A DNA stretch of 20,418 bases from a virus. Position numbers and translations under genes: made by a program. This document shows, one piece after another, positions 537-12,293 of the stretch (the stretch's first letter is position 1; every line of letters begins with the position of its first letter). The DNA lies in IMG/VR virus record IMGVR_UViG_3300036859_000486, positions 1-20,418 of that record, one strand, 5' to 3'. The notes beneath the pieces were generated by a model, which worked only from the letters and a program-made list of their open reading frames with translations, was not told the origin of the DNA and made no database searches.

Positions 537-3464
537 TCAGTTCGATGCCTGTGCTGTGTAGCCTTCGCCGACTTGTTCGCTGATCTGATGCACCTTCCAG
601 TGCACGGTGGCCTGCGCCGATCCGAAATCGGTCGTCTGTTCCGCGGCGCTGTAGGCCTGCGACGCTGTCGTGACGATCGCGAACTCGCGTTTGACGGTGG
701 CGAATGTCCCGTCGACATACACACGCACGCGATAGGCCTCGACCGCCTCGCCCAACGGCAAAGATGCGTTGTCCGAGTTCATCGACAGACGCGAGCGGCG
801 ATCCCACGTGAACGTGAGGTTTCCGCTGCCATCGCGCGCGGCACGTGGCGATACGGGCGCGTGTGGCTTCTGGCTCGTCGCAGCGAAGGTCGCCGACTGT
901 GAACCGGCGCTATTGATGTCGCGGCCGATCGTGACGCCGCGCCAGTACCGTGTGTTTCCGATTTCGCTCGTCTCGAGCGGGATCCGGCGCATGCCGGTGG
1001 TCTGCAGCAGCACGAAGCGATCGCCCGCAGCATGGCCGGTCATCGCCCAGTCGGTGCCCTTGCGACCGCGCAGGAACCCGCTGAGGATATAGACCCCGGG
1101 AGACACGAGGCTCGCGGTGCGGAACTGCAGCACCTCATTGCCGATGAGACACAGGTTCGCCTCAGCGTCGACCATCGCAGCGTGCGTGACGCTGGACAAC
1201 GCGCCCGGACCAACGTTGACCGTGACGACACTGGCTTCGTCGGCCAGGTTGCCACCGGTCCAGTTGCCGAGTGCCGTGCTTGTGCTGCCAAGCACTGCCG
1301 ACTCGGTGATGCTGACTTGCTGCGACCAGTCGCTGTCATCTGCACTCTTGAAGACCACCGAGCCAGGATGCGAAGTTCCATCGCCGCGCGTCGCGCCATA
1401 TAGACCAACGCCGTTGTCGGCGTCACGCAGCAACGCGATGTCGAGGATGCGGAGCACCGTAATCCCCGGCACGCTGACCTCGCTCGACGGGATGTAGTCG
1501 GTGCTCGTGATGCCTGCCTGTGTGAGCACGTTCGCATCGTCGAACACGGCATCGAACGTGCGCACAAGGCCGGACTCGACGAGGTTCACCATGCGCAGGC
1601 GATAGGTGGAGCCATCGCGCGCCACCACGCTAAGCACGTCGCCCGGTTCCTTGGCGGCGTGGTGCAGCAGCAGCTTGATGCTCGTGGTGCCCATGGCCGC
1701 CACCAGCGCGTCATCACGCCAGGTGTCGACGATCGCTTTGGCCTCAGCCGCAGTGAATCCGAGCGGCACCTCCTGACCCTGCGAAGTACGCGCAGCGGAG
1801 CCGAGGCGATCGGACTGCTGCGTGTCTTTGGTGCAATCGGCATCGATGTTCATGTAGCTCATCGCCCACGTGCCGGGCAACTCGAGCTCGCTGCCGGGTG
1901 TGATCGACAGCGGCTCGGGGTCACCTTCGAGGCTTTCGCTGGCGCCCAGCTCGGCAAACGGGATGGTGGCCACCGCAGCACCGCCGCGCGGCCGAAAGTA
2001 CAGCTTGTCGCTCAGCACGCAATCGAAGAAGTAATTCGCACGCAGCAGGTCTATCACGTGGCGGGCACTGGTGACCTGGCTGATCGCCAGAGCGCGCACG
2101 GGATTGGTGATGCTGGCCAGAGCGGATGTGTCGAACTCGCTCGCCTGCAAGCCACTGCGCAGCAGTAGGGCATCGACAACATCGCGCAGAGTCTCGTTCT
2201 GAATCGTGGCGCGCGTTGGCAGCACGTAAATGTCGGAGAACTCGGCCTCGGTCGTTGGGATAGCCAGCGTGGCGTCCATGTAGAAGCCCTGTGTGCCAAT
2301 GTCAAGGGCGTTGAACGTGCCGGCGAGCGTCTGGCTGATAACCACCGCCTCATCGGGTAGGCGCGAGATCGTGACTACCGAACCACCGGACACGCCCGGC
2401 GCGATGGTCAGGTCGAACTGATACCAGCCCGGATCAAGCGCCACAGAGCCCAGGAAGAACGACGAGCCTGACACCAGAAGGCGCGGCCGCGATGCCGGAT
2501 CGATCGCCGCCTCTCGGCGCGGCGTGAAGAAGAAGCGATTCGTCGAACCGCTGGCGTTGTTGAAGTAGATCTCGCCAGAGTCTTCGCCGGTCAGGTTGAC
2601 GCCGAGCTTGAACTTGAAGCGAATGCCGATCGCGGTGCTCAGCGGAACGGTGCGCCGAATGTCGTCGGAGGTTGTGTTTGTGCGCTCCGGGCACACGACC
2701 GTTTCACCGTAATCGCTTGTCGAGCCGCGGCTGAACGCATCCACCGAGCCGGTGATGGCGCTGTAGTGCACGGCCAGTGCGTCATTGAGTCTGTCGTGGT
2801 AGCCCGTGCCGCCGGCTGTGCCCTTGGTGAACCACTCGGCTCGCACGTTGGGCATGTTGCCACTGGGGCCGAGCTGCAGCCCCTCGAAAACGATGCTGGC
2901 TCCGCCCACGTACGCCGGCGAGTTGCCCGCGCCAACTGCTGCTTCCTCGGTTGGATCCGGCAGTTGGCTCGTGGCACCGGTGTAAACCGTCATTCGGCGC
3001 CACATGATGTTTTGCAAGCTGTTGCCCACAGCGCCCACCGTCGCATCGCTGCGCACGTTGAAAACCAGCTTCTCGTTGATCCACAGCCGAGACAGGCCGA
3101 CTACCTGATTGCAGGTGAAGCCGACGCGGCAATCGACCTCGTACGTGTATGACGTTTGCGAAACCGTTGGACCGCCGCCCTTGCCACCGCTCTGCGACAC
3201 GGTGTTCGGAATGGCACGCCGGTCGCTCGCCCACCAGAGTTGCCCGGCCAGCACCGGCGCGCCTTTGATGTAGGCGATGGCATCGCCGAATTCCAGACCG
3301 ATGACGCGCAGGTCATCGATCTTCGGGCTCTCGTAGCGCTGGTCTGGCGCCATGCCGCGTTCGACAGCACCGCCCGCGAGCGAGCCGAGGAATGCGCCGA
3401 GCTGTGGATAGCCGACCTGATAGCCGATGTACGTGCCGATCGCCGTGAGCACGAGACGCGCCAC
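537..3464 (-). CDS. gpJ-like tail tip / host-specificity hub protein
   Basis: This 975-aa protein is probably the central tail-tip hub that contacts the tape measure and carries fibres. Start is GTG 3464, preceded by GGAGGG about 8 nt upstream inside the previous gene, whose stop is 3 nt away. Residues 5-33 are Gly/Ala-rich and hydrophobic (IGYQVGYPQLGAFLGSLAGG), typical of this family. Residues 45-215 form the conserved N-terminal region. Residues about 424-600 match the Phage-tail_3 (PF13550) / GTA hub type (RDVVDALLLRSGL; DCVLSDKLYFRPRGG). The C-terminus has a conserved segment around FLRGRKGTDWA and a final fibronectin-like region (NLTFTWDRRSRL; EAYRVRVYVDG). Residues about 225-415 look like an extra beta-sandwich between the first two parts, discussed as a finding. 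The family call is confident; receptor-binding activity is inferred. Confidence 0.9.
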   Translation of the reverse strand: MARLVLTAIGTYIGYQVGYPQLGAFLGSLAGGAVERGMAPDQRYESPKIDDLRVIGLEFGDAIAYIKGAPVLAGQLWWASDRRAIPNTVSQSGGKGGGPTVSQTSYTYEVDCRVGFTCNQVVGLSRLWINEKLVFNVRSDATVGAVGNSLQNIMWRRMTVYTGATSQLPDPTEEAAVGAGNSPAYVGGASIVFEGLQLGPSGNMPNVRAEWFTKGTAGGTGYHDRLNDALAVHYSAITGSVDAFSRGSTSDYGETVVCPERTNTTSDDIRRTVPLSTAIGIRFKFKLGVNLTGEDSGEIYFNNASGSTNRFFFTPRREAAIDPASRPRLLVSGSSFFLGSVALDPGWYQFDLTIAPGVSGGSVVTISRLPDEAVVISQTLAGTFNALDIGTQGFYMDATLAIPTTEAEFSDIYVLPTRATIQNETLRDVVDALLLRSGLQASEFDTSALASITNPVRALAISQVTSARHVIDLLRANYFFDCVLSDKLYFRPRGGAAVATIPFAELGASESLEGDPEPLSITPGSELELPGTWAMSYMNIDADCTKDTQQSDRLGSAARTSQGQEVPLGFTAAEAKAIVDTWRDDALVAAMGTTSIKLLLHHAAKEPGDVLSVVARDGSTYRLRMVNLVESGLVRTFDAVFDDANVLTQAGITSTDYIPSSEVSVPGITVLRILDIALLRDADNGVGLYGATRGDGTSHPGSVVFKSADDSDWSQQVSITESAVLGSTSTALGNWTGGNLADEASVVTVNVGPGALSSVTHAAMVDAEANLCLIGNEVLQFRTASLVSPGVYILSGFLRGRKGTDWAMTGHAAGDRFVLLQTTGMRRIPLETSEIGNTRYWRGVTIGRDINSAGSQSATFAATSQKPHAPVSPRAARDGSGNLTFTWDRRSRLSMNSDNASLPLGEAVEAYRVRVYVDGTFATVKREFAIVTTASQAYSAAEQTTDFGSAQATVHWKVHQISEQVGEGYTAQASN

Positions 3465-3467
3465 GCT

Positions 3468-3929
3468 TCAGCCCTCCACGTCCGGAAGCGCGTAGCCGGC
3501 GTGCATCAGCATGCCTGCATGCAGCATCAGCCGATGCTCGACCACGCCCCCAGTCTTGGCGCCGTGCACCCGCGCGAACTGGTTCGCATGGATGAACGAC
3601 AGGCCGCCGTGCACGTAGTCGCCGATGAACCCGACATGAGACACGCGCGCATTGACGCCCCAGGCGATCAGAGCCACGTGACCGGGCGCGATGGCCTCGA
3701 GCGGTACTGGCCGCAGATGCTCGTCGCACAGCGCCTTCATCGTGCGGCCATCCGGCATCGGGGCATAGCCGGTGACGTCGAAGTGCGCCGGGAAAGCACA
3801 CAGTTCGCGCCCCACTCCGATGATCAGCCCAGCACAGTCGACCGCCACGCCGCGCAGCCGCGCCTGATGCAGAAATGGCGTGCCGATCCACAGTCGGGAT
3901 TGCGCGACGACATCGGCCGCCGTGGTCAT
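3468..3929 (-). CDS. NlpC/P60-family tail peptidase
   Basis: This 153-aa protein is probably a cysteine peptidase or amidase of the tail tip that opens peptidoglycan or processes the tail. The catalytic Cys32 lies in VDCAGLI, the His98 in SHVGFIGD, and a third polar residue is likely His114 in SFIHAN, so the NlpC/P60 triad is visible. ATG 3929 was chosen because it overlaps the upstream stop as ATGA, the usual coupling in this block. An in-frame start 15 codons further upstream (3974) would add residues that look like out-of-frame translation of the preceding gene. It sits between DUF2163 and the hub gene, the same order as in gene transfer agents and many siphoviruses. No signal peptide is seen, which fits a virion-delivered enzyme. 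Confidence 0.9.
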   Translation of the reverse strand: MTTAADVVAQSRLWIGTPFLHQARLRGVAVDCAGLIIGVGRELCAFPAHFDVTGYAPMPDGRTMKALCDEHLRPVPLEAIAPGHVALIAWGVNARVSHVGFIGDYVHGGLSFIHANQFARVHGAKTGGVVEHRLMLHAGMLMHAGYALPDVEG

Positions 3930-4783
3930 GGCTCGGCCTGCTTCAAAACGTCGGCTGGCTTCGGCCGATACCACTCGCCCTTGAAGCGCGGCACGTTGTT
4001 GAACTTGATTTTGCAGTCGAGATCAAGCCGCTTGCGGCAGCCTGCGATCGCTTCGAAGGTGTCCCCGATCAAGATCGCTGCGAGCATCGGCTTCGTGAGC
4101 GTGAAGGCGCCCGAAGCGAAGGCCTTCACCAGCATGGTCAAGCCTGCGTTGTTTCCGGTCAGCCAGAGCACCGTGCCCTCGCCGAAGTAGTCATCGGGCT
4201 GGACGAGCGCGCTGTCGGTGAACTGGGCAGGATTGGCTACAGCCGTCACCGTGCCGCTATGCGTGAACGGAGCCAGGTTGACGTTGCAGAACGAGTGCAC
4301 ACCATCGTCGACGCCGAGCCGGTTGCGGCACAGCTTGGTGCTGATTGGACCGGTGGGGTGCTGCAGGTAAAACTGCAGGCCGAACAGTTCGACGACGACG
4401 GTCGTGCGCTTCAGCACCACCTCGCTGAAGACGCCGCCCATGATGGGATCGATGCCGTCGGCGACGTTCGCCCAGTTGTAGCGGAACAGCAGGAACTTGC
4501 TGTTGCTCCACTTTCGCGACAGCACATCGGCATGCGTGAAGACCGAACTATCGTCAAGCGTGGTCAATTCGATGTTGTCGACATCGAGCCCGGCCGACAA
4601 TTCGAAGCTGGACAGATCGATTCCGTTCTTGCTCTCGTACGGAACGCCACTGATCGTGGCATCGTGCGTGGCCGAGGTGAAGCCGAATACCTGCGCGTCA
4701 GGTCGCGTGACGCGCAGTGCGACGGCAATGGTCTGCGCCCGCGACGCGAACTGCGCCGCCATGCCGGCCGTTGGCGTCTTCAT
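3926..4783 (-). CDS. DUF2163 / phage BR0599-type tail tip protein
   Basis: This 285-aa protein matches the DUF2163 family with a C-terminal BR0599 domain, corresponding to a distal tail or hub-associated component in gene transfer agents. The diagnostic C-terminal stretch at residues 247-270 contains GCRKRLDLDC and KFNNVPRFKGE. Cysteines at 152, 166, 249 and 257 resemble the family cysteines that in some relatives bind an iron-sulfur cluster; cluster binding here is inference only. ATG 4783 overlaps the upstream stop as ATGA, and a GAGGAG SD lies about 12 nt upstream. It is translationally coupled to DUF2460 upstream and the NlpC/P60 peptidase downstream. The length is typical for the family. 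Confidence 0.9.
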   Translation of the reverse strand: MKTPTAGMAAQFASRAQTIAVALRVTRPDAQVFGFTSATHDATISGVPYESKNGIDLSSFELSAGLDVDNIELTTLDDSSVFTHADVLSRKWSNSKFLLFRYNWANVADGIDPIMGGVFSEVVLKRTTVVVELFGLQFYLQHPTGPISTKLCRNRLGVDDGVHSFCNVNLAPFTHSGTVTAVANPAQFTDSALVQPDDYFGEGTVLWLTGNNAGLTMLVKAFASGAFTLTKPMLAAILIGDTFEAIAGCRKRLDLDCKIKFNNVPRFKGEWYRPKPADVLKQAEP

Positions 4784-5382
4784 GAAAGGCGGATCTCCTC
4801 GAGGGTGATCTCTTGCGTGAGCACGAGCGGGCCGCTGCTGGACGCCTCCAATACTTCGGGGAACTCATCGCCCATGAACGTGACTGGCACGTCGAAAGTC
4901 CCGGTCCACTTCGCCGGCGTGCCGCCGCTGACGGCTGTCGCGATGCCTGTCGTCGTGCTGATCGTCGCCGTCAGCGCCACGCCGCCAGCATCGCGAAGCA
5001 CTGCATCGCTGTTCGGTTTGCTGATGACGCGGTCGAAGCTGATGCCGCCGAAGGTGTAGCGCCGGCAGAGCTGATAGGAGCCGCCGCCCAGGTCGATGAC
5101 ATGCGTGTTCGCCATCGTGGCCTGATAGTCGCCCCAATGGCGAAAGCGGAAGCCTTCGTACGGGGTGAAGTTGATCACGTACCACAGCGCGCGCAGCGAC
5201 TCGAACTCGCTGATCGTGCGCAGTCCGTGAGACACATCGAACTCGTGCAACGGCGCGGCCCACTTGAAGCCCTGCAGCAGCGCGCCAGCCTGGTTGTAGG
5301 CCTTCATGCGCCCTCGGTTCAGCGGGCGCGCGACGGCGTTTCGCTCCACCCGTGAATCGATCCGTTCCTCGAGCATCGCCAT
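4780..5382 (-). CDS. DUF2460 distal tail protein
   Basis: This 200-aa protein has the DUF2460 / TIGR02217 pattern: an N-terminal half with KAYNQAGALLQGFK and ALWYVINFTPYEGFRFR followed by HWGDY, then a beta-rich half ending in TQEITLEEIRLS. Members act as the distal tail protein that joins the tail tube to the tip in GTA-like tails. Start ATG 5382 lies 1 nt after the tape-measure stop; GAGG about 11 nt upstream is the possible SD. An alternative ATG two codons later cannot be excluded. Length and order (tape measure, DUF2460, DUF2163, NlpC/P60, hub) match known systems. Confidence 0.9.
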   Translation of the reverse strand: MAMLEERIDSRVERNAVARPLNRGRMKAYNQAGALLQGFKWAAPLHEFDVSHGLRTISEFESLRALWYVINFTPYEGFRFRHWGDYQATMANTHVIDLGGGSYQLCRRYTFGGISFDRVISKPNSDAVLRDAGGVALTATISTTTGIATAVSGGTPAKWTGTFDVPVTFMGDEFPEVLEASSSGPLVLTQEITLEEIRLS

Positions 5383-5383
5383 G

Positions 5384-8269
5384 TCAGTTCAGCCTCGCGC
5401 TCGCCCGGCGCAGCTTTGTCGCGGCACGCGCTGCGAACTGGTCGGCGCTATCGCGCGTCGGGTTGCCCTGCACGTTGACGTTGAAGCTCTGATTGACGAC
5501 GTTGTCGCCACCTTTCTGCTGAGGCTCGATGCGGCCGTTCTGCGCGGCGAGCAGGTACTGTCGACCGCCAGCGTTCAATATCTCGCCGGGGCCCGCTTCC
5601 TCGTTGATGCGGTACAGGTTGCCGCGGGTGACAGTGCCGCCTTGGGCCCTGCCGCCACCGAAGGCGCCCGCCAGGAACTGCGCGAAGGCTCCGAACCCGT
5701 CGCCGCCCTTGGTACTGTCACCGAGCAGGTTCGCGATCTGCTGCTTGATGATCACGCGCGTGATCTCGGCGACGATGGAGTCAGCCAGCGATCGCCAATT
5801 GAATTTGCCCTTGGTGACGAACTCGACGAGTGCGTCTTCCAATCTCTCGAGCGAGCGAGTGAAGAAGTTCTCTGACAACTTTGCCGCGTTGGCGGCCTGC
5901 TCTTGATACTTGCGAAACGCCTCGGACGCGCCGATGGTGGCGTCGCCCTCTTGCTGTTTGCGCTTCAGGAAGAACTGATCGTATTCGGCCAGGGAGCGCG
6001 ACAGGAACTCACGCAGCAATGCAAGGCGGGCGTCGAACTCGCGCTCGTCGTCGGCGGTGGCCGTGCCGGCGGTGCGCTTGCTTTGGATCTCGTTGGTCGC
6101 GCGCTCTATGTCGGCTCGGAACTTGTCCTCGATCTGTGCTCGCGCTTGCGCGCGCGAGCGCTCCACATCACCAGAACCGGCGAGTGCAAGCTCAAGCTCA
6201 TGCGCGCGCCTGACCGCCTCGAATGCCTGCACGGCCGAAATCTGCTCTTGCTGCTGCGCGGCGATGCGCCGGCGCGCGTTGGCCTCTTGCTGGATCGTCA
6301 GCGCATCGTCGGCCGCTGCGGCGGCGCTGCGCACGCGCGCTATCTGGCTTTGAGCGCTGGCGATCTGCTTCGCGTTCTCGATCGCGAGGCGCGCCGCATC
6401 CTTGCCTATGAATCGCTGCTGTTGGAGCCGCGCAATCTGGTCCTGCAGCGCCTGCACCTCGAACTGGGCCTGCAGCGCGACCTGCGCGCGCTGCGCGGCG
6501 AAGGCTTCCTCGTCGTTCAGCCTGCCGGCCTGACGCAGCGCGTTGAACACGGTTTGCGCGTTGCGCACCGCGTCGTTGCGGTCCTTCAGCACCTGCTCGA
6601 TCGCCTCGAGGTCGGCCTGCAGCTTGGCACGCGCGATGGCGTTCACATCGCTGTCGAGGCTGGCGAACTTCTCGCGGATGCCGGCCAGCACCGCGGCACG
6701 CTCTGCGGCTGTGGCGCCCGCTCTGTCGGCCAGCGCGTTGGCGTCGGCTAACTCTTTCGCTAGCCGCGCCTGCCGGGTCAGCGTCTGCTCTTTGAGCTTG
6801 CCGAAGGCGATCGCCGCCTGATTCGTTTGCGCCGCCTGCGCGGCAGCCGCCGCGGTCGACCGCTCGGCGCTCTGCTGGCGCTCGAGCGAGCGGATGAGGT
6901 CTTCAATCTCGGCGCGGCGACGATCAACGGCACCGCTGCCCTGCTCCTCCGGGCTTTGCTGCTGCGCCAGCAATTCCAGCTCGGCGCGCAGGCCGCGGAT
7001 GGCTTCTTCGGCGGTCTGGTCGCGTCCGATGGACAGAAGCGCATCGGCGGCGCCGCTGACCGCGCGCTTGACGGCAAGCCATGCGCGCTCGAGCGTGCCG
7101 ACCTTCTCGGCTGCCTCGCCGGTGCGCTCGTTCAGCGCAGCGAAGGTGACGGCCAGCGCCTCTTGTGTTCGGCCCTGGTCCTCGAGCGTTCGGATGTAGT
7201 CGATCTGTTTCGCGGTGAGGAAGTTCAGCGATCGATTCGTCTGCTCGGCAAACCTTGTCGGGCCGTCAGCGGCGCGCACGAAGTCTTTGATGATCTCGTC
7301 GCGGCTTTGGCCGGTCACCTTGCTCAGCAGCTGCACGCCGCGCGCCGCCTGCGCCAGCGCATCGCCGCTGAACCGCCCCGACGCCACGAGCGACTGCAGC
7401 GTCTCGCGCGCGCTGCCGATCGTGGTCTTGGTCGAGTCGGCGATCGTCCTCGCCATGTCGTTGAACTGGCCTTCGGTGACACCGGCCGCATTGCCCGTCA
7501 GGATGATCGCGCGCTGAAACGCGAGGCTTTCCTCGGATCCCTGGTGAAATGCCACGGCGACGCCGATCGTCGCGCCAGCCAGTCCGCCGAGCAGCAGACG
7601 GGTCGCCGTGAAGATTCCGGCCACCGCCCTGAGCGCATTGCCGGCGCTGCCGAACGCGCCAGAAAGCTGCGAGCCCTGCTGCACGAAGGCCGTGAGCGGG
7701 TTCTGACCGGCTGCTACCTGCACGAAGAAGTCGTGCAGTTGAAACCCGAGCTGCTGCTGTTGCTGCGCCGTGATGGCCGCGGCAGCGCCCGCGCTCTTGG
7801 TCGACACGGTAAGCAGCGCCTGCGCGGCGGCGAGGCGCGCTGCCGCCTGCGCCTGGCTGGCCTGCGCCTGCTCGACGCGCGCCGACGCAAGGGCGAATTG
7901 CGTCTGCGTGGCGGGCCCGGCCGCCTGCGCACGGTTGAACGCCTCTTGCGCCACCGTGACGCGCGCCGTTGCCACCGCGAGGGCTGCCTGCGCGGTCTGC
8001 ACGCGCAGCGCGGCACTGGACGATGCCTCAAGGCTCGCGGCACTGGCGCGCGCGTTCTGCGCGAGCCCAGCCTGCGCGCTGTTGGCTTGGCCGGCGGTGT
8101 TGGCGATCCCGGCCATTGCCGAACTCGCACCCTTGCCGGCGCGTTCGAATGCGGTCGCAGCGGTCTCGGCCTTCTTGCCTTGCGTCGCGAACTTGTCGAG
8201 CTCGCTGTTCGCCGACGCAACCTGTGTCGAGTCGACCTGTAGCGATAGACGGGTGATTTCTTCAGCCAT
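5384..8269 (-). CDS. Tail tape measure protein (lambda gpH type)
   Basis: This 961-aa protein sets tail length and is likely ejected with DNA. Residues 1-170 are Ala/Gln-rich with strong coiled-coil character. Residues about 175-410 match the Prophage tail length tape measure domain (QLHDFFVQVAAGQNPLTAF; TRFAEQTNRSLNFLTAKQI), including a hydrophobic stretch at 213-242 that could insert in the host membrane. Residues 410-790 are again long helical, charged and Ala/Gln-rich. Residues about 795-850 match the lambda TMP C-terminal domain (FVTKGKFNWRSLADSIV). Start ATG 8269 lies 3 nt after the DUF1799 stop. At the rule-of-thumb 0.15 nm per residue, the tail would be near 140 nm if the protein is uncleaved; that is inference. 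Confidence 0.95.
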   Translation of the reverse strand: MAEEITRLSLQVDSTQVASANSELDKFATQGKKAETAATAFERAGKGASSAMAGIANTAGQANSAQAGLAQNARASAASLEASSSAALRVQTAQAALAVATARVTVAQEAFNRAQAAGPATQTQFALASARVEQAQASQAQAAARLAAAQALLTVSTKSAGAAAAITAQQQQQLGFQLHDFFVQVAAGQNPLTAFVQQGSQLSGAFGSAGNALRAVAGIFTATRLLLGGLAGATIGVAVAFHQGSEESLAFQRAIILTGNAAGVTEGQFNDMARTIADSTKTTIGSARETLQSLVASGRFSGDALAQAARGVQLLSKVTGQSRDEIIKDFVRAADGPTRFAEQTNRSLNFLTAKQIDYIRTLEDQGRTQEALAVTFAALNERTGEAAEKVGTLERAWLAVKRAVSGAADALLSIGRDQTAEEAIRGLRAELELLAQQQSPEEQGSGAVDRRRAEIEDLIRSLERQQSAERSTAAAAAQAAQTNQAAIAFGKLKEQTLTRQARLAKELADANALADRAGATAAERAAVLAGIREKFASLDSDVNAIARAKLQADLEAIEQVLKDRNDAVRNAQTVFNALRQAGRLNDEEAFAAQRAQVALQAQFEVQALQDQIARLQQQRFIGKDAARLAIENAKQIASAQSQIARVRSAAAAADDALTIQQEANARRRIAAQQQEQISAVQAFEAVRRAHELELALAGSGDVERSRAQARAQIEDKFRADIERATNEIQSKRTAGTATADDEREFDARLALLREFLSRSLAEYDQFFLKRKQQEGDATIGASEAFRKYQEQAANAAKLSENFFTRSLERLEDALVEFVTKGKFNWRSLADSIVAEITRVIIKQQIANLLGDSTKGGDGFGAFAQFLAGAFGGGRAQGGTVTRGNLYRINEEAGPGEILNAGGRQYLLAAQNGRIEPQQKGGDNVVNQSFNVNVQGNPTRDSADQFAARAATKLRRASARLN

Positions 8270-8272
8270 GGA

Positions 8273-8596
8273 TCAATGCACGCCCGGCGCGGCGGCTCTC
8301 ATGCTCTCGTTCATGGTCTTGAGCGCTTCGCTTTCCATCACCTGCACGTCGTCGTACATCAACTGCCACTTCGGGCGTGTGATGCCCAGCGAGAGACGCA
8401 CCTCGCGCAGCGCCTCGGGGCGGATGCCGATCGGACCACCGGGGCCGACGTTCCACGCGCCAGGCGGTATGGCGTCGAAGAAGCGGACCGTCGGCCAGTT
8501 CTCCGGCCAGACCTCGACGTTGTCTTCGTCTTTGAAGTCGTCGAGCGTCAAGCCCCAGGCGGCCAGCTTCGCAAGATCACGCGGCGGCGAGTACAT
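8273..8596 (-). CDS. DUF1799 tail assembly chaperone extension (lambda T-like), probably read by frameshift
   Basis: This 107-aa frame matches DUF1799: EVWPENWPTVRFFDAI, then GPGGPIGIRPEALREV, LGITRPKW and a C-terminal DDVQVMESEALKTMNE. In lambda-like phages the equivalent region is made only as a fusion to the upstream chaperone and helps load tail tube subunits on the tape measure. The frame is open upstream past ATG 8596 to 8617, where it meets the slippery site of the chaperone gene. That adds LKAAARA before the methionine and would give a 216-aa fusion. No clear SD precedes ATG 8596, and that codon lies in the loop of a GC hairpin, so independent initiation looks poor. The stop is 3 nt before the tape measure start. 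Confidence 0.88.
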   Translation of the reverse strand: MYSPPRDLAKLAAWGLTLDDFKDEDNVEVWPENWPTVRFFDAIPPGAWNVGPGGPIGIRPEALREVRLSLGITRPKWQLMYDDVQVMESEALKTMNESMRAAAPGVH

Positions 8597-8623
8597 GGCA
8601 CGCGCCGCCGCTTTCAGTTTCCC
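8581..8623 (-). promoter_or_regulatory. Programmed -1 frameshift signal (slippery site plus hairpin)
   Basis: Read on the minus strand, codons 100-102 of the chaperone are CTG GGA AAC followed by the stop TGA, giving the heptamer G GGA AAC (8623-8617) in the correct zero frame for X XXY YYZ slippage. After a -1 slip the ribosome reads CTG AAA GCG and enters the DUF1799 frame. Five nucleotides after the heptamer begins a perfect 9-bp stem, GCGGCGGCG (8611-8603) with CGCCGCCGC (8589-8581), and a 13-nt loop. Slippery site, spacer, hairpin, frame and gene pair all agree with the lambda G/T system, where the heptamer is GGGAAAG. Efficiency is not predictable from sequence. Confidence 0.85.
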
Positions 8624-8922
8624 AGTCGTCGCCCGTGCAGTTCGTTGGCGTAGGCCGTTCCGATCGCGAACGACGCACCCGGATAGGCTTCAGTCAGCGC
8701 GAGCAGGTTCTCTTTCGAGAAGTCGCCATCGACGCCATCCCACCCGGCAATGATGCGCATCAGCGTATCGACATCGGCTTCGCCGTCCGCCGGCTGGAAC
8801 GCCTCGAACTGCGAGCGCGGCATGTGCTTGAACGTCAGCGTGATGTCGTGCCGCTTCTGTTCGCCCGGGATCGGAATGCCGACCTTGCACTTGAAGGTCG
8901 GATTCGGTTGCAGCTTGAGCAT
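8614..8922 (-). CDS. Tail assembly chaperone (lambda G-like)
   Basis: This 102-aa protein lies between the tail tube and DUF1799/tape measure genes, the standard place for the tail assembly chaperone. Its sequence has a beta-rich start (FKCKVGIPIPGEQK, HDITLTFKHMPRSQF) and a helical second half (VDTLMRIIAGWDGVDGDF, ENLLALTEAYPGA). These are features of phage tail assembly chaperone families. Chaperones of this type coat the tape measure and recruit tube subunits and are absent from the finished virion. Start ATG 8922 lies 14 nt after the tube gene stop, with only a weak GAAGA-like SD. The last three codons form the frameshift slippery site. Assignment rests mainly on context and moderate sequence resemblance. 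Confidence 0.85.
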   Translation of the reverse strand: MLKLQPNPTFKCKVGIPIPGEQKRHDITLTFKHMPRSQFEAFQPADGEADVDTLMRIIAGWDGVDGDFSKENLLALTEAYPGASFAIGTAYANELHGRRLGN

Positions 8923-8936
8923 GTGTCTTCAGCCGA

Positions 8937-9587
8937 TCACGACGCGTAGCGGGTGCTGAGCGGGTTGGCCAGCGCGAACACCGCCGTCGTCTTCATGTTC
9001 TCGTTGATGGTGAACGAGGGCTCGCCGTCGAAGCTGACGTACATGCCCCAGTACAGCTTGTTGCCGTTCGGCAGGGTCGCCAGCAGCGGCAGCACCGTGC
9101 CATCGTCCGACGCGTTGAGCAGCGCGCTGTGCCACGCCAGGTCCGGATCCCAGTCCATCACCAGCGTAAGCGACTTCGCGTTGCGGAACGTGGGCCGCTG
9201 TAGTTGCGAGCCGCTTTCGAGGTACTGCCAGGTGTAGAACTGCTGCTCGCCGCCGGCCGTCTGCGCGTCCGTGACCTGCGAGATCGCAGCCGGCGCCGTG
9301 GCGAGCTGCGAACTGCCGACGCCGAAGCCGGTCGGATACTTGATCACCGACGTCGTGTCGATGCCTTCCAAGTTCCACGCATTCGCGACTGAGCCCGCCA
9401 CGCGAACGACGCGATTGTTCAGGCGCGCCGACGCGACTGACAGCAACGCGATGCCGCCATCGCTCATGCCGTGTGCCGTCGAGGAGGCGACGCCCGGGTT
9501 GGCATTGCTGATAGCCGTGATCACATCCGCCGCTGCCAGCGTGGTGTAGAGCGAGAAGACGGTGCCATTCGGGAATGAGCTGGACAT
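8937..9587 (-). CDS. Major tail tube protein
   Basis: This 216-aa protein is likely the subunit of the tail tube. It is beta-rich with segments such as ITAISNANPGVASSTAHG, QQFYTWQYLESGSQLQRP, LTLVMDWDPDLAWHSALL and YWGMYVSFDGEPSFTINENM, resembling lambda gpV / Phage_tail_3-class tube proteins. It sits between the tail terminator and the tail assembly chaperone, exactly where tube genes lie. Start ATG 9587 is preceded by an AAGGGG SD about 8 nt upstream in a 32-nt intergenic gap, one of the clearer SD sites here, as expected for an abundant protein. No C-terminal Ig-like domain is present. Call is confident from order plus sequence style. Confidence 0.88.
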   Translation of the reverse strand: MSSSFPNGTVFSLYTTLAAADVITAISNANPGVASSTAHGMSDGGIALLSVASARLNNRVVRVAGSVANAWNLEGIDTTSVIKYPTGFGVGSSQLATAPAAISQVTDAQTAGGEQQFYTWQYLESGSQLQRPTFRNAKSLTLVMDWDPDLAWHSALLNASDDGTVLPLLATLPNGNKLYWGMYVSFDGEPSFTINENMKTTAVFALANPLSTRYAS

Positions 9588-11117: not shown

Positions 11118-12293
11118 TCAGGCCTCGATCTCGTCGCCGATGCTAGGCACGTCGTAGTGAAGGCTCGCGCCCGGCACGTCGAAGCGCAGCGAAACCCCGG
11201 CAATGTCGAAGCGCAGCGACAGGCCCGGCACGTCGTAGCGGTAGAACGCCGACAGGCTCTCGGTGTTGTTCAGCGCGAAAGCTTGGTCGACCTCGATCGC
11301 GATGCCCAGGCTGGCGAAGAGTTGCACCGCCACTGCGAAGGCGCTGTCGCTTTCCTGGGCCTGCCCGATCTGCTGCGTGCTCGCCGGCGAGATCGACAGC
11401 GCTGCGTCGGTTTCCGTGGCCTGCGCGAGGCTTTGCGTCTGGCTGGAACCCACCGGCAGCGCGGTGTCAGCCTCGCTGGCCAGCCCGAGCAGGCGCTGCT
11501 GCAACACCTGCAGCGCCTGCGCGGCGTCGAGCTCGGTCGCGATGCCGAGCGCGAGCCTCAGCGTCGCCGAGATCGGCTGCGCGCTGTCGCTCTCGGTCGC
11601 TTGCCCGACAACGTTCGTGCCGCTTTGGGTGATGGGTTGTGCCTCGTCGACCTCGGCCACCTGGCCGATCGCCTTGCTCTGGTTCGCGGTGATCGGATGA
11701 GCTGCGTCGGTCTCGGACGCGATGCCGACCGGCGTGCGCACGACGATGGCGATCGATTGCGCCTGATCGGTCTCCTCGGCCTGGCCGAGCGCCGTGCGCA
11801 GGCTCGAGGTGATGCCGAGTGCGGCATCGGTCTCCTGCGCCTGCCCAACGCCCACCGAGGTGGCGCCGTTCGTCACCGATTGCGCTGCGTCGGTTTCCTG
11901 CGCTTGCCCGATGACGATCGGCAGCAGCGCCACGAGCGGCAGCGCGGCGTCGGTCTCAGCCGCCAGGCCGATGGCCAGCGACTGCCCGACCGTGATCGAC
12001 TGCGCCGAATCGCTCTCGCTGGCCAGCCCCAGCGTGATGGCATGGTGCGGCGCGATCGCGAATGCGGCGTCGGTCTCTTGTGCCTGACCGAGCGCGACGC
12101 TCTGCCGCAGCGTGATCGTTTGCGCGCTATCCGTCTCGATCGCCTGGCCGACCGGCTGCTGAAACCGCGCCGCGATGGCGAGTGCGGTGTCAGTCTCTAC
12201 GGCCTGGCCGACTGCGGTGCCACCGCCCGCCGTCTCGATCGGAACGCGCCCCAGGCGCGGCGTGAATGCCTGCGCGCGCCCAAGGCGGGCCAT
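11118..12293 (-). CDS. Tandem-repeat virion protein (16 x 20 aa, then 4 x 9 aa)
   Basis: This 391-aa protein is almost entirely repeats. After a 28-residue start (MARLGRAQAFTPRLGRVP), residues 29-349 are sixteen near-continuous units of about 20 residues with consensus G-Q-A-x-E-T-D-x-A-x-x-I followed by eight variable residues. One unit has 21. Residues 353-388 then form four 9-residue units of type [YF]-D-V-P-G-x-S-L-R. The protein is acidic and Ala/Gln/Thr-rich, with no Cys, signal peptide or membrane segment. Similar GQAxETDxAQ repeats occur in other phage proteins, from memory, but without known function. Regular 20-residue periodicity suggests a beta-solenoid or elongated fibre. ATG 12293 is 3 nt after the upstream stop. 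A role as a neck or head fibre is inference from position among connector genes. Confidence 0.85.
   Translation of the reverse strand: MARLGRAQAFTPRLGRVPIETAGGGTAVGQAVETDTALAIAARFQQPVGQAIETDSAQTITLRQSVALGQAQETDAAFAIAPHHAITLGLASESDSAQSITVGQSLAIGLAAETDAALPLVALLPIVIGQAQETDAAQSVTNGATSVGVGQAQETDAALGITSSLRTALGQAEETDQAQSIAIVVRTPVGIASETDAAHPITANQSKAIGQVAEVDEAQPITQSGTNVVGQATESDSAQPISATLRLALGIATELDAAQALQVLQQRLLGLASEADTALPVGSSQTQSLAQATETDAALSISPASTQQIGQAQESDSAFAVAVQLFASLGIAIEVDQAFALNNTESLSAFYRYDVPGLSLRFDIAGVSLRFDVPGASLHYDVPSIGDEIEA
11136..11237 (-). repeat. Four coding repeats of about 27 bp
   Basis: The 3' end of the 391-aa gene encodes four 9-residue units (YDVPGLSLR, FDIAGVSLR, FDVPGASLH, YDVPSIGDE). 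They differ in sequence and phase from the 20-residue repeats. The DNA units are clearly related but not identical. Confidence 0.8.
11247..12209 (-). repeat. Sixteen coding repeats of about 60 bp
   Basis: Tandem DNA repeats encode sixteen 20-residue units of the 391-aa protein, one of them 21 residues. The GA(G/A)-AC(C/G)-GAC core encoding E-T-D is the best-kept part and the other positions are diverged. There are no spacers, so this is a coding repeat and not a CRISPR array. Confidence 0.85.

Follow-up and report, generated by a model that had tools for sequence, protein, structure and literature searches.

A predicted programmed −1 ribosomal frameshift linking the TAC_4 and DUF1799 parts of a phage tail assembly chaperone gene

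Results

A TAC_4/DUF1799 gene pair between the tail tube and tape measure genes

In the record of an uncultivated virus (IMGVR_UViG_3300036859_000486; all 20,418 bases were analysed, and are here called the window), we identified a pair of reading frames, coding for a Phage_TAC_4 protein and a DUF1799 domain, which we predict, with a probability of about 95%, to form one gene that codes for tail assembly chaperones by programmed −1 ribosomal frameshifting. The original prediction, made from the DNA letters alone, had read this locus as a tail chaperone frameshift, and this reading is supported, as the protein families, the neighbouring genes, the −1 relation of the two frames, the heptamer, the codon constraint and the RNA structure all fit it.

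The zero-frame ORF, located on the minus strand at 8614..8922, codes for a tail assembly chaperone (TAC) of 102 aa, corresponding to a short gpG-like product. It matches PF08748 (Phage_TAC_4; E 2.6e-22, 79.8 bits against a cut-off of 21.1) and PHROG 569 (E 1.1e-28), and its structural matches in BFVD are phage 'tape measure chaperones'. The −1-frame extension (minus strand, 8273..8617), which begins LKAAARAMYSPP..., codes for 114 aa with a DUF1799 domain (PF08809; E 1.2e-14, 54.7 bits against a cut-off of 26). Both ORFs are classed as tail proteins by PHROGs (the matches in the scan were to PHROG 569, 17368 and 680). In the Pfam scan the pair sits between the gene for the tail tube protein, upstream (minus strand, 8937..9587; PF08813, E 1.3e-43), and that for a tape measure protein of 961 aa, downstream (minus strand, 5384..8269; PF06791 and PF09718). 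Sequence and fold searches of the PDB gave no credible relative of the TAC_4 or the DUF1799 domain, and no Rfam family matched anywhere in the window.

Two further observations concern the surrounding genes. The tail module is a mosaic, with tail-tip genes at 537-5382 (minus strand) like those of a gene transfer agent (Rcc01698_C, Phage_BR0599/Gp84_N and DUF2460), as opposed to a tape measure protein and chaperones of the siphophage type. In addition, a 391-aa ORF at 11118-12293 (minus strand), found between the capsid and tail genes and with no Pfam match, consists of about 15-20 degenerate repeats on the pattern GxAxETDxAxxI, with repeats of the RYDVPGLSLRFDIAG type at its end.

The slippery heptamer and the two reading frames

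Read directly, the minus-strand TAC ORF (8922-8614) ends with the codons CTG GGA AAC TGA. The zero-frame codons GGA and AAC, together with the G that precedes them, form the heptamer G_GGA_AAC (8623-8617), in the frame that tandem −1 slippage requires, and the zero-frame TGA stop (minus strand, 8614..8616) is directly 3' of it. The −1 frame is open from 5' of the heptamer through LKAAARA-MYSPP... to a stop at 8275-8273, giving a predicted fusion of 102 + 114 = 216 aa. The placement of the heptamer against the stop thus agrees to the base with what had been claimed, as do the uninterrupted passage of the shifted frame into DUF1799, the addition of LKAAARA and the length of the fusion. The interval 8581-8922, which had been proposed for the whole cassette, is right in its contents and too short in its extent, since it omits most of the DUF1799 domain, and the cassette should therefore be drawn to 8273.

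The occurrence of GGGAAAC in the window is unremarkable in itself, with one copy found and 1.25 expected. What gives weight to the predicted site is the frame in which it stands, where it lies in the gene and how well it is conserved, and not its mere presence.

Conservation of the heptamer, the frame and the stop

Relatives were picked by protein similarity alone, and comprise 20 named phages and a further 239 loci, taken from viral contigs and from genome contigs. As single-protein scans of viral contigs gave no close relatives, the loci were found with sub-group alignments, the full alignments being too divergent for scanning. Both domains were present in 251 loci, which correspond to 205 distinct junctions of 120 nt; at 75% identity these fall into 85 clusters.

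Taking the window and the named phages together, 20 of the 21 TAC genes end in GGA AAC or AAA AAC with the stop directly after, and in the same 20 sequences the preceding codon ends in G before GGA AAC and in A before AAA AAC. An in-frame heptamer is present at the end of the TAC gene in 202 of the 205 distinct junctions, a count that includes a few junctions with the stop 1–3 codons further on, and for 204 of the 205 the frame of DUF1799 is −1 relative to the TAC gene. The conservation of GGGAAA[CG] in relatives had been proposed as a check; the heptamer is indeed kept, but as GGGAAAC or AAAAAAC (with one AAAAAAT), at 44, 40 and 1 of the 85 clusters, respectively. The last heptamer codon is AAG or AAA in none of the clusters, the stop is the very next codon in 81 of them, and the base that follows the stop, examined for a weak-terminator context that would point to a role of the stop, has no clear bias. 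Across the 205 junctions, we did not find the pattern of relatives that lack the heptamer and use a separate start with a Shine-Dalgarno (SD) sequence.

Two of the junctions without a heptamer keep the ORF pair. The Xanthomonas phage phiL7 (L016, around 860-900) has GTA AAA TAA, with only an A_AAA tetramer, and a locus from a Fibrobacter MAG (L174) has GCA AAG CCC TAA, with the −1 ORF pair kept and only an A_AAG tetramer; these cases reflect either sequencing error or a tetramer-type shift site. The third exception among the junctions (L123) has indels within the TAC ORF and retains the heptamer as CGTGAAAAAAACTGA.

It had also been pointed out that GGGAAAC differs at its last base from the GGGAAAG of lambda. 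The difference is real, and C is the rule at this position across the TAC_4/DUF1799 relatives. Judging from these junctions, a last-base C followed by the stop is the norm of the family, and GGGAAAC is not a degraded GGGAAAG.

Codon choice at the slip site

The conservation of the heptamer could merely follow from a Gly-Asn or Lys-Asn end of the protein, and in an alignment of 53 TAC proteins N102 is indeed invariant. We therefore note what a protein-level constraint leaves unexplained: GGA is used in every GGGAAAC cluster, against an expected share of 0.11, the third base of the preceding codon always matches the X of the heptamer, and DUF1799 is in the −1 frame at all but one of the junctions. 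A synonymous-codon test was performed, giving the chance of the observed choices under the codon usage of the gene in question. Per site, the joint synonymous-codon probability averages 0.035 for GGGAAAC and 0.105 for AAAAAAC, and the summed log10 probabilities are −71 and −48, respectively, with the clusters treated as independent, which is true only in part. As background, among 9319 other codon positions in the TAC genes of the relatives, 18 hold an X_XXY_YYZ heptamer in frame. On this comparison of sequences, the choice of codons at the predicted slip site is far more restricted than the amino acids alone would make it, and we give the protein-end explanation almost no credence.

A stem downstream of the slip site

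A spacer of 5 nt (TGAAA, 8616-8612) separates the heptamer from a stem of 9 bp found by folding, with the 5' arm GCGGCGGCG at 8603..8611 and the 3' arm CGCCGCCGC at 8581..8589 (both minus strand), closing a loop of 13 nt (8602-8590). All 9 of the 9 pairs in this GC stem are Watson-Crick, and the length of the stem, the spacer and the pairing are all as originally described. The minimum free energy is −25.7 kcal/mol, with z = −3.2 against dinucleotide shuffles.

For the family, windows of 45 nt were slid across the junction and folding z-scores were obtained for the 85 clusters. The signal peaks at +5 nt downstream, where the mean z is −1.06, against about −0.15 upstream, and where z is below −2 in 31% of the clusters, against mostly 2-9% at other positions. 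With a second null, which keeps the protein and the codon usage, the mean z for the first codons past the site is −0.80 (P = 6e-4 when compared with the remainder of the gene); the window's own z is −2.1. Conservation of the stem in relatives, also proposed as a check, thus holds as an enrichment and not as a universal feature, a strong stem being present in only about 30% of the clusters. Because the downstream structure stands out under both nulls, in a minority of clusters, we take the stem to be a real, non-universal stimulator, one that aids the site but does not define it.

The fusion could instead arise by transcriptional slippage of RNA polymerase, which the A runs at the AAAAAAC sites of relatives might permit. 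However, half of the clusters, including that of the window, have GGGAAAC with 3 A only, too short for efficiency, and the downstream RNA stem fits ribosomal stimulation, making slippage by the polymerase an extremely improbable source of the fusion compared with ribosomal frameshifting.

DUF1799 is unlikely to start on its own

The downstream ORF has an ATG at 8596, which lies within the loop of the stem and has no SD ahead of it, both points as previously claimed. It is located 17 nt past the stop, and two genes are called by GenBank annotators in many relatives, which would suit a DUF1799 protein made from this ATG once the TAC stop has been reached, whether by coupling or by reinitiation, with the heptamer incidental. 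Against this, besides the missing SD, the ATG is enclosed by the −25.7 kcal/mol hairpin and is not conserved: at this position the 85 clusters have CTC (23) and CTG (19) more often than ATG (12), among others, and only 5 of the 85 have, among their first 25 codons, a start accompanied by an SD-like 4-mer of any kind. Conserved residues, moreover, lie before the ATG, with an A-x-x-L/M-Y motif that begins right after the slip site and spans the ATG. In the structural model of DUF1799 (pLDDT 94), helix 1 comprises residues 2-9, beginning before the ATG and spanning it, and a protein begun at 8596 would, according to this model, lose most of that helix. Separate initiation is thus unlikely, the ATG being unconserved and inside the conserved first helix, and since the heptamer and its synonymous codons are also conserved, we consider a two-gene arrangement very improbable.

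Discussion

Proposed mechanism

We infer the slippage and its rate, the part played by the stop codon and the way in which the two products share the work as follows. Most ribosomes would decode GGA AAC and halt at TGA, giving the TAC_4 protein of 102 aa. A minority would be held by the stem 5 nt downstream, and perhaps also by the arrival of the stop codon in the A site, and would slip, the tRNAs re-pairing on GGG AAA. These shifted ribosomes would read on through CTG AAA GCG..., giving the TAC_4-DUF1799 fusion of 216 aa. In lambda, the tape measure is bound by the short protein, while the fusion, which is rarer, contacts the tail tube subunit as well; both chaperones have departed by the time the virion is complete (PMC5009743). 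If lambda gpG/gpGT is a guide, the short form would coat the tape measure protein and the fusion would recruit tail tube subunits.

The shift rate may be low, since in E. coli assays heptamers ending in AAG shift more than those ending in AAC (PMC4066793; PMC5009743); lower shifting with a last-base C may suit a product required in small amounts. Natural bacterial sites can evidently be held to AAC and a stop although AAG shifts better in those assays. The strict adjacency of the stop suggests that either the short form tolerates no tail, or a slow stop codon aids slippage. The latter leads to a more tentative idea, which we regard as rather unlikely, that the TAC_4/DUF1799 family represents a distinct bacterial −1 class, defined by XXXAAAC and an immediate stop, in which the tRNAs that already occupy the E and P sites (Gly-Asn or Lys-Asn) would be made to slip by the stop in the A site, and not by a stem only. 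If this were true, release-factor activity would set the ratio of the two chaperones.

Relation to known systems

The lambda G/G-T tail chaperone frameshift (Levin 1993; Xu 2004, 2013, as cited in PMC5009743) is likewise encoded between the tail tube and tape measure genes, and involves a −1 shift at G_GGA_AA(N) near the end of the first ORF, giving a short chaperone and a fusion. In lambda, however, GGGAAAG is five codons ahead of the stop, whereas GGGAAAC in the window is directly at it. The Pfam and PHROG scans of the window proteins detected no homology to lambda G/T, so that the proposed lambda G/T style stands for the mechanism and the gene order, but not as sequence kinship.

Counterparts of the site exist in other phages. 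In the Burkholderia phage KL1 (gp18/gp19), a predicted GGGAAAC is also found immediately before TGA in a tail chaperone gene (PMC3483164), but its chaperones belong to another family, with a Phage_TAC_18 match for the −1 product and no Pfam match for the ORF before it. In the Acinetobacter phage Loki (gp12/gp13), the slip heptamer is reported to abut the chaperone stop as in the window (PMC5313236), but it is AAAAAAC, and the likeness drawn here is that of the site. Phage TLS (tfmA/tfmS) and Serratia phage Smarc2 (pre-tape measure frameshift protein) share with the window both TAC_4 and a DUF1799-type extension, differing in having AAAAAAC instead of GGGAAAC. Both heptamers are also listed for Caulobacter and haloarchaeal phages. 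Since the lambda, KL1, Loki, TLS and Smarc2 cases have already been described, this kind of frameshift is known in phages, and it is the locus of the window that is new.

Frameshifting is not mentioned in the single open-access paper found to name DUF1799 or Phage_TAC_4, and the family-wide rule of AAC followed by a stop appears to be unstated in the open-access literature. Among the 20 named phages only TLS and Smarc2 have a joined frameshift CDS, the HK639 record does not annotate DUF1799 at all, and in most GenBank records (L002-L006, L009-L021) DUF1799 is a hypothetical protein of its own, whose start is often truncated. Our analysis argues instead that DUF1799, whose function is listed as unknown, makes up, across the family, the C-terminal half of a tail chaperone produced by frameshifting.
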